Part shown: in pieces, positions 58,943 to 61,846 of the stretch
Position numbering within the stretch: the stretch's first letter is position 1
Layout: each line of letters starts with the position of its first letter
Source of the DNA: Bacteroidia bacterium
Lineage (GTDB): Bacteria > Bacteroidota > Bacteroidia > J057
Assembly (NCBI GenBank): GCA_022760475.1
Contig: JALEFZ010000070.1
Span: 1-64,000 of the forward strand
Length of the DNA: 64,000 nt
Direction of reading: 5' to 3'
Made by a program: the position numbers and the translations under genes
The notes under the pieces: generated by a model
The model's input: the letters and a program-made list of their open reading frames with translations, nothing else
Databases searched by the model: none
Told to the model about the DNA's origin: nothing

Positions 58943-59091
58943 TGAATTGAGTTTTTGGAGAAACAAGAAATAATGGGGGCTTTAATTTACCTAAAAGCTC
59001 TAAATCCTCGAAAATTAAGACACAAAAATCTTGTTGTTATCTACTAATGATGCCATATTTTTGGCAAAGAATTCTATTTCACTCCAATCTT

Positions 59092-59793
59092 ATGTCATTC
59101 TTTGCCAAAAACCTCCGGTTTCTACGTCTCCAAAGGGGAATGGAAGTTCCAGATTTTGCAGAACTGTTGGAAATCTATGATGAGAGCCTTCGACGCTTTG
59201 AAAGGGACAAGGCAGAACCTGACCTGGATCAATTGATTCGAATAGCGGATAAACTGGATTTACCCATAGATCATTTGCTTTGTAAAGACCTTGATTGGCT
59301 TGAAAAGAAAATTTCTGCAAAGAAGCCCAGGCTATTACTATTGGACGTGGATGGGACGCTCACCGATGGAGGGCTATATTACTCTGAAAAGGGAGATGAG
59401 ATGAAACGCTTTTCTGTGAAGGATGGGATGGCCCTTAATAGATCAATGAAATTTCACAACCTGGAAGTAGGCTTGATATCAGGTTCAGGAAATCTGGGTT
59501 TGATTGGCAAGAGGGCCATGGATCTTGGGATCAAAAGAGTCAAGGCAGGCAAAGGTTCCAAGGTGGCAGTTGCAGAGGCTTGGATGAAGGATATTGGCTG
59601 CAATTTTGATCAGGTAGCCTTTATCGGGGATGATTTGAATGATATTGCCTTGATCAAAAAGGTGGGAATCTCTGCTTGTCCTGCGGACGCAGTCTCAGCA
59701 GTAAAGCGGGCTGTTGATATGGTCCTCAGTAAAAAAGGAGGAGAGGGCTGCGTAAGGGAGTTCTTGGAAGAAAGATTGGGTTTGGAACTGTAA
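59092..59793 (+). CDS. XRE helix-turn-helix fused to KdsC-like HAD phosphatase
   Basis: A 233-residue protein; ATG 59092 (MSFFAKNLRFLRLQRG) is preferred over one 15 codons upstream. Residues 5-66 form an XRE-type helix-turn-helix resembling that of the S24 repressor 2 kb away (FERDKAEPDLDQLIRIADKL, IDHLLCKDL). Residues 79-230 are a KdsC-type HAD domain: nucleophile Asp85/Asp87 in LDVDGTLTDGG, FSVKDGMAL, ISGSGNLG, IGDDLNDIALI (Asp180/Asp181), CPADAV and GGEGCVREFLEERL. KdsC releases phosphate from KDO-8-phosphate for lipopolysaccharide. The DNA-binding extension is not part of ordinary KdsC and suggests regulation. Confidence 0.88.
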   Translation: MSFFAKNLRFLRLQRGMEVPDFAELLEIYDESLRRFERDKAEPDLDQLIRIADKLDLPIDHLLCKDLDWLEKKISAKKPRLLLLDVDGTLTDGGLYYSEKGDEMKRFSVKDGMALNRSMKFHNLEVGLISGSGNLGLIGKRAMDLGIKRVKAGKGSKVAVAEAWMKDIGCNFDQVAFIGDDLNDIALIKKVGISACPADAVSAVKRAVDMVLSKKGGEGCVREFLEERLGLEL

Positions 59794-60172
59794 TGAAGCG
59801 GTGGTCTGAATACATACTTCCATCACCTGACACAATGAATTCAAAGAATTCAAGAGGCACCTGGCATAAATCAAGTCACAGCCAAATTCCTCCTCGAATA
59901 CTCATCTAGTTAGAATTGGCAAGTTTTCCAGAGAATTGATGTCTTTGTTCCCTTCGATGTTTGCTGCAGTACTGAGGAAACTCTTTTGAACGTTAGGGAG
60001 AGATCTATGCCGTAGGGGCAATTAGGGTCATCAGGGTATTTCAACTTTTAATGGCTTAGCGAAACTTGCCTAATTGAAAATTAAGTAGGTTTAATATGTA
60101 TTGTGTCAAACTTAAGCTGTAATAGATATAACTAATTCTTCCCGTGGACGTTTGAAACAAAAAAGCTAATTG
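59794..60172 (+). other. 379-base spacer without recognised features
   Basis: No open frame with coding character, no tRNA and no convincing terminator. Two GAATTC sites flank AAA at 59837-59851. The 3' half is AT-rich and should hold the promoter of the DCC gene. Confidence 0.55.
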
Positions 60173-60565
60173 ATGCGGGTAATCATATTTGATGGAATTT
60201 GCTCATTTTGTAATGCTTCTGTAGACCTACTGATGCGCTGGGATAAGAACAAGAGGTTTAGGTTTACTGCGAATCAGAATGAATCTGGTAAGACATTGCT
60301 AGAGGAGGCCGGTTTTGATAGTACCCAGGTTGAAACCATCTACTATTATGAAGATGGACAGATGTATACCAAGTCTACAGCAATTCTAAAGATTGCAAGG
60401 CAACTTCCTTTTCCTTTTCCCCTTGCTTATGTGTTCATGGTAGTCCCCAAATTTATAAGAGATGGGATTTACAGCTTTATAGCAAAAAATCGATATAGAT
60501 GGTTTGGGAAGAGAGATACATGCAGGGTTCCTACTCCTGAAGAAAGAGCAAGGTTTTTAGCTTAG
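60173..60565 (+). CDS. DCC-family thiol-disulfide oxidoreductase-like protein (DUF393)
   Basis: A 130-residue protein with the defining DGICSFCN motif (Cys10, Cys13) at its N terminus. The remainder follows the family (RFTANQNESGK, KSTAILKIARQL) and ends FAKNRYRWFGKRDTCRVPTPEERARF with the expected conserved Arg/Trp and Cys. A thioredoxin-like fold with redox role is inferred from the family; substrates are unknown. Start ATG 60173 rather than the TTG one codon earlier. Overlaps the convergent methyltransferase gene by four bases. Confidence 0.9.
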   Translation: MRVIIFDGICSFCNASVDLLMRWDKNKRFRFTANQNESGKTLLEEAGFDSTQVETIYYYEDGQMYTKSTAILKIARQLPFPFPLAYVFMVVPKFIRDGIYSFIAKNRYRWFGKRDTCRVPTPEERARFLA

Positions 60566-61141: not shown

Positions 61142-61846
61142 TCAATTCATGTTTTGTGGGCTAGGAAACTCCTGACTCACAAACATCACTGCCTTCCAAA
61201 GTTGTTGAATATCAGAAATGGCAAGATCGAAAGGAGCATAACTTGGGTTGTCTGATACAAGGTGAAGCAGTGGACTCTGTCCAATCTGTGCCTTTAGGTA
61301 TACCCTTTTATACACCAATCCTTCTTCACTCGAGGCCACAATATAGGTATGCCCATCCTTTATGTCGGTAATTTTTTCTACTTTTTGAGCAATGATGATG
61401 GTGCCTGAAGGGAGGGGAAGCATGGAATCTCCATCAATTTCAAACGCCAGATGATCTCCTTGGCGAAGCATTGGGAAATGGATTTGGGGAAGCTGGTCCA
61501 GGTACTCAGGGTCTGCAAATCCTTGCATATATCCCGCAGCAGCCTTTTGTGGTATCATCGGAATCGTCTTTTCCGGGCTTTGTTTTATGCTTTCTGATGT
61601 TTGTCTCAGGTCTTCTTTCGTTAGGAAACTTAGGTCTTTTTGTATCAATTGGTCTAGCGAAAGTGAACAGAGTTTTTGGATTTCAATCAATACATTAATT
61701 GGAGGGGTTGCCCTGCCTTCTTCATATGATCCTATCTGAGCCCTGCTTGCACCAATTTCATCTGCGAAGGTAGCTTGTGTGTGTCCCAATAATTTTCGCA
61801 AATGTTTTACATTCTGAGATATGATTGAAGGACTTTTATCTTTCAT
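61142..61846 (-). CDS. XRE transcriptional regulator with S24 LexA-like peptidase domain
   Basis: A 234-residue repressor. The N-terminal helix-turn-helix (about 9-66) reads VKHLRKLLGHTQATFADEIGASRAQIGSYEEGRATPP. A linker (70-105) follows, and the C-terminal S24 domain (about 110-225) has the nucleophile Ser in GDSMLPLP and the Lys base in GLVYKRVYLK. It may autocleave under DNA damage as phage CI/LexA-like repressors do, but no prophage genes surround it. The N-terminal domain resembles that of the XRE-KdsC fusion. Confidence 0.9.
   Translation of the reverse strand: MKDKSPSIISQNVKHLRKLLGHTQATFADEIGASRAQIGSYEEGRATPPINVLIEIQKLCSLSLDQLIQKDLSFLTKEDLRQTSESIKQSPEKTIPMIPQKAAAGYMQGFADPEYLDQLPQIHFPMLRQGDHLAFEIDGDSMLPLPSGTIIIAQKVEKITDIKDGHTYIVASSEEGLVYKRVYLKAQIGQSPLLHLVSDNPSYAPFDLAISDIQQLWKAVMFVSQEFPSPQNMN

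Follow-up and report, generated by a model that had tools for sequence, protein, structure and literature searches.

Is a protein that joins a DNA-binding fold to an enzyme of lipopolysaccharide sugar synthesis a gene switch, an enzyme, or both? The question is raised by a gene in the window studied here, i.e. the whole analysed stretch of 64,000 nucleotides from a Bacteroidia bacterium, in which a helix-turn-helix (HTH) domain of the XRE type precedes a KdsC-type phosphatase of the HAD superfamily. Most Gram-negative lipopolysaccharide contains KDO as a core sugar, and the original prediction was a bifunctional regulator-enzyme that ties the supply of this sugar to transcription. The comparisons described below point instead to a KDO-8-phosphate phosphatase with an XRE-derived domain that has turned structural, a reading to which a probability of about 0.65 is given; the substrate and the loss of DNA reading are both deduced from sequences and predicted structures.

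Architecture of the fusion gene

The whole open frame extends from 59047 to 59793 on the forward strand, and the ATG used, at 59092, is where the orthologues start to align, in agreement with the gene limits proposed at the outset. The features of the gene and its surroundings are as follows.

59092–59793, + strand: coding sequence of the XRE-HTH/KdsC fusion, 233 aa; orthologues align from its ATG
59101–59283, + strand: five-helix XRE-type HTH, residues 4–64 (Pfam HTH_3, 27.7 bits; AlphaFold helices)
59179–59202, + strand: recognition helix, residues 30–37, starting D-E-S; most homologues beyond the window's family lack it through deletion
59290–59319, + strand: linker helix, residues 67–76 (AlphaFold)
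59320–59790, + strand: KdsC-type cap-less HAD phosphatase, residues 77–233 (TIGR01670; fold matches)
59344–59367, + strand: HAD motif I, DVDGTLTD (D85 to D92)
59479–59481, + strand: HAD motif II serine, S130
59560–59562, + strand: HAD motif III lysine, K157
59626–59643, + strand: HAD motif IV, GDDLND (G179 to D184), from the homologue alignment
60170–60565, + strand: downstream gene, 131 aa; members of its family are also found next to the phosphatase in several genomes of the window's family and elsewhere
61142–61846, − strand: XRE-S24 repressor, named in the original prediction

The predicted fusion is real. One frame of 233 aa encodes both a complete XRE HTH, with an HTH_3 match over residues 8–62 at 27.5–27.7 bits (Pfam cut-off 23), and a KdsC-type HAD domain that scores 133.3 bits with TIGR01670 (curated cut-off 106.95). 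The AlphaFold model, built from a 34-row alignment, has a mean pLDDT of 91.4 and places the HTH helices at residues 4–14, 19–25, 30–37, 45–54 and 59–64, followed by the linker helix and the HAD fold. It is highly improbable that the fusion is an annotation artefact and that the HTH and the phosphatase are made separately. Alternative ATG codons do occur, upstream at 59047 and internally at residue 17, but there is no start codon in the fusion frame at residues 63–83, hence no plausible second start that would yield a phosphatase lacking the HTH; moreover, the one-frame architecture is repeated in many genomes.

The phosphatase domain and its substrate

The HAD active site is intact, as predicted. 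All catalytic residues are present: in 34 homologues D85, D87, T91, K157, G179-D180-D181 and D184 are invariant, and D92 and S130 are at least 90% conserved. Fold comparison of the AlphaFold model gave VIA Z 25.2 to 3mn1, and the best structural match was E. coli KdsC with KDO and phosphate (Foldseek, 6.2e-17); matches in these whole-model searches cover the phosphatase part only. The protein shares its fold, catalytic residues and genome context with the KdsC/YrbI KDO-8-phosphate phosphatases (TIGR01670; PDB 3i6b and 3mn1), from which it differs in the added N-terminal XRE-type domain. Two further differences count against KDO-8-P as the substrate. The score with the KdsC equivalog model NF007019, 112.1 bits, is below the cut-off of 208, and the KDN-9-P model NF058599 likewise falls short (see below). 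In addition, motif II is expected to read TGR or TGE in KDO-8-P and KDN-9-P enzymes, and here it reads ISGSG in the window protein and mostly ISSG in its relatives, without the TGR arginine.

A phosphatase of nonulosonates, acting on KDN-9-P or Neu5Ac-9-P instead of KDO-8-P, was also weighed and is considered improbable. The nearest solved relatives by sequence are the Bacteroides KDN-9-phosphate phosphatases (PDB 3e81 and 4hgq), and the corresponding model, NF058599, is the top NCBIfam match, yet the score of 134.8 bits is under the cut-off of 180. Such a function would also leave the genome without any KdsC over cut-off. Furthermore, relatives of the fusion adjoin KDO-type genes, and no neighbour of the fused relatives proved to be a NeuB-type synthase; a synthase of that type was found beside a separate group, in which the phosphatase is fused to NeuA.

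In its own genome (G000), the fusion gene is the only KdsC over cut-off, a stand-alone kdsC over cut-off being absent. The kdsA and kdsB genes, the presence of which was an obvious check on the prediction, were both found, kdsD lies directly upstream of kdsA (L150), and waaA is also present. The other KdsA-superfamily match of this genome scores as a DAHP synthase and, to judge by neighbour names assigned from sequence starts, presumably sits in a tryptophan operon. In a second genome of the set (G008), canonical kdsA is two genes upstream of the phosphatase on the same strand. Because the fusion is the sole KdsC in a genome with kdsD-kdsA, kdsB and waaA, KDO-8-P is the likeliest substrate, and it was also chosen since gene content suggests that the phosphatase has a part in KDO synthesis in either genomic setting, inside and outside the window's family. 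The gene product would thus perform the KdsC step, between KdsA and KdsB.

The N-terminal domain among relatives

The N-terminal domain probably derives from an XRE helix-turn-helix protein and recurs across Bacteroidota. Among the 13 genomes of the window's family (G000–G012), the phosphatase carries an XRE-type N-terminus in 11, complete in 10 and degenerate in G012. No match to the KdsC model was found in G007, and in G001 (L147:4299-5498) IspD is fused to the same phosphatase type at the place of the HTH. Other N-terminal partners of the phosphatase superfamily include canonical KdsA, found in a single frame with a KdsC-type phosphatase at L090:5032-6471 and at similar loci (L093 and others), and a protein that we take to be of the NeuA type (L072 and L148). 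The partners in the KdsA-KdsC, IspD-KdsC and NeuA-type-KdsC fusions are enzymes, whereas in the window protein the partner is an HTH.

Of 58 aligned fused-length rows, one (L085) was dropped owing to a masked stretch, and is probably a NeuA-type fusion. Among the remaining 57 homologues, helix 3, the recognition helix, is kept in 18 and lost in 39, where a full HTH was defined as at least 9 of the 10 helix-3 columns filled, a lenient criterion that passes four rows with degenerate N-termini (L015, L016, L021 and L037). The deletion takes the recognition helix alone, and helices 1, 2, 4 and 5 remain; likewise, AlphaFold predicts for L051, one of the deleted forms, a four-helix domain that lacks the recognition helix (mean pLDDT 86.8). 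HTH_3 is matched by 16 of 34 members of alignment A1 (E ≤0.1), and by 2 of 33 members of alignment A4, which comprises deleted forms (E ≤1, best E 0.087). A Pfam-recognisable HTH is also present at further loci, e.g. L034–L036. In a rapidly built tree of the HAD part, with SH-aLRT as its sole support measure and long branches flagged, the fused forms and some short forms make up one supported clade, and the 10 rows of the window's family form one clade. Some clade members, such as L022, L023, L025 and L058, have no N-terminal domain; L073 and L074, which are cut by contig ends, were scored as short. The gene caller missed the gene of G009, which is therefore not in the tree; it was included manually in the comparison of helix-3 residues. 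The HTH is thus largely degenerate or non-conserved in orthologues, an outcome recognised beforehand as adverse to a regulator.

Within the window's family, the recognition positions are altered. Positions 30–33 hold on average 1.4 acidic residues in 10 window-family fusions versus 0.1 in 10 further XRE proteins from the window's genome (Mann-Whitney p 0.0006, a guide only, as the rows are phylogenetically related). The protein resembles XRE/HTH_3 regulators, e.g. 3op9 and 7t8i, in its five helices and their order, and differs from them in the acidic recognition positions of the window's family and the deletion of helix 3 in most relatives. Given that four helices (1, 2, 4 and 5) persist beside a missing or altered recognition helix, and that some relatives have no such domain or another one, the N-terminal domain is taken to be structural. 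It would no longer read DNA and may now serve in assembly, for instance in oligomer or partner contacts; a leftover or building block is more likely than a gene switch. Three observations count against the view that DNA reading has been lost: 9 of the 10 window-family rows still have helix 3, the HTH and the own-genome XRE controls are not clearly different in net charge (p 0.07), and helix 3 varies within the family no more than helix 2 does (mean pairwise identity 34% and 32%, respectively).

The proposed regulator would bind an operator, perhaps in its own promoter, through the HTH, and its phosphatase domain would report KDO-8-P or KDO. This is doubtful. The HTH of the window protein is complete, over the Pfam cut-off and confidently modelled, and it is this intact HTH, together with the retention of helix 3 in its close relatives, that provides the sole positive evidence for regulation in the window's family; for that reason DNA binding there is judged no worse than unlikely. 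Against it stand the loss of the recognition helix in most relatives, the acidic contact positions, and the absence of the domain or its replacement by IspD elsewhere. The surroundings of the gene give no further support. An operator search upstream of the fusion revealed only inverted repeats with 7-nt arms and gaps of 23–60 nt, none convincing, and promoter-like matches in the same region were at chance level. The genes adjoining the fusion are not KDO genes; the product of the 131-aa downstream gene had no NCBIfam match and is presumably DUF393-like. The resemblance of the HTH to that of the nearby S24 repressor, noted originally, exists but is generic, with 14 of 55 residues identical; two other XRE proteins encoded in this genome share 16 and 15 of the 55 with the fusion. 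As another XRE protein is closer, a recent origin of the HTH by copying from the repressor was rejected, and no homologue of the repressor was found beside the relatives examined.

A related possibility, that the protein is a regulator in which the phosphatase-like domain is a pure ligand sensor without catalysis, is very unlikely. HTH domains fused to enzyme-like sensor domains exist elsewhere, an analogy that had no counterpart in the computed results, and the invariant catalytic residues and the position of the protein as sole KdsC of its genome both oppose it. The fusion, the intact phosphatase site and the lack of another KdsC stand, and the role as a transcriptional regulator does not find support.

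A proposed alternative front end of KDO synthesis

Beyond the window's family, the phosphatase gene usually takes third place in an operon that also encodes an Rpe-fold protein with CBS domains (Rpe-CBS) and a DAHP-synthase-like protein, e.g. at L034:4002-6699 and L140:5612-8270. Outside the family, 47 fused-length loci were compared, and 39 of them have both the 334-aa Rpe-CBS gene and the 332-aa synthase gene nearby; six loci have the synthase only (four of these with <1 kb of upstream sequence) and two have neither gene. Inside the family, neither was found at any of 10 loci. Canonical kdsA genes at L028 and L137 clustered with the DAHP-synthase-like genes and were excluded from the synthase count. 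One locus, in G043 (L145:7728-9444), has canonical KdsA and a DAHP-synthase-like gene beside the phosphatase and no Rpe-CBS, and is a possible intermediate. In G044, kdsB is ~1.4 kb from the three-gene operon on the same strand.

In the Rpe-CBS protein, residues 2–194 match ribulose-phosphate epimerase, and residues 215–325 match the CBS part of KpsF/KdsD. Its neighbour had been considered as a NeuB-like synthase, a candidate discarded when the family scan gave a DAHP-synthase-like protein. The 332-aa synthase is over the DAHP-synthase cut-off and reads GAK[AS]MYD versus GARNTQN in the DAHP synthase of the window's genome. It retains KPRTS, which is typical of DAHP synthases and counts against KDO-8-P as its product.

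Full-length Rpe-CBS was found in 11 of 60 relatives, all 11 of which lack KdsA over cut-off, have no KdsD match >60 bits and contain a second, shorter Rpe match. KdsA over cut-off is present in 44 of the other 49. The Rpe-CBS relatives have kdsB over cut-off in 10 of 11 cases and waaA in 9 of 11, the exceptions being G056 (69% complete), which lacks both, and G039, which lacks waaA. Six relatives with KdsA (G017, G021, G024, G025, G028 and G059) showed a best KdsD-model match to the CBS part only, with SIS unmatched, mostly in a protein of ~340–385 aa that in several cases lies near kdsA; these proteins may possibly represent another KdsD variant.

In a class sample of 197 genomes at least 90% complete, with presence set by author-chosen thresholds (E 1e-50 for Rpe-CBS and 1e-60 for KdsA), Rpe-CBS occurred in 43 and KdsA in 146, with no overlap and eight genomes having neither (Fisher p 1e-35). 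Fisher's test ignores the relatedness of genomes, and the safer evidence is therefore the split inside single genera, seen in g32 (3 vs 3), g37 (2 vs 5) and g40 (1 vs 1). The phosphatase clade (E <1e-65) is present in 38 of the 43 Rpe-CBS genomes, i.e. all except G013, G054, G147, G172 and G183, and in 5 of the 154 others (four of the window's family and G043).

That Rpe-CBS and KdsA do not occur together in this sample, also within genera, points to a replacement. On balance, it seems likely that the phosphatase clade belongs to an alternative Bacteroidota front end of KDO synthesis, with KDO as its presumed product, in which other proteins take the place of KdsD and KdsA, and KdsB and WaaA persist. 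The pentose phosphate would be made or supplied by the Rpe-fold protein, whose CBS domains are KdsD-like, and the DAHP-synthase-like enzyme would make KDO-8-P in place of KdsA. The HTH-derived phosphatase would then remove the phosphate, and KdsB and WaaA would follow unchanged. The window's family would have kept this phosphatase and use the classical KdsD-KdsA pair. No description of the XRE-HTH/KdsC fusion or of the Rpe-CBS operon was found among the titles and abstracts listed by an open-access library, which leaves out most subscription journals.

In the fusion, a metabolic enzyme would have taken over a transcription-factor fold, and the stages run from the complete HTH through loss of the recognition helix to absence of the domain. 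Genomes that possess KdsB and lack canonical KdsA and KdsD make the putative replacement route directly testable.
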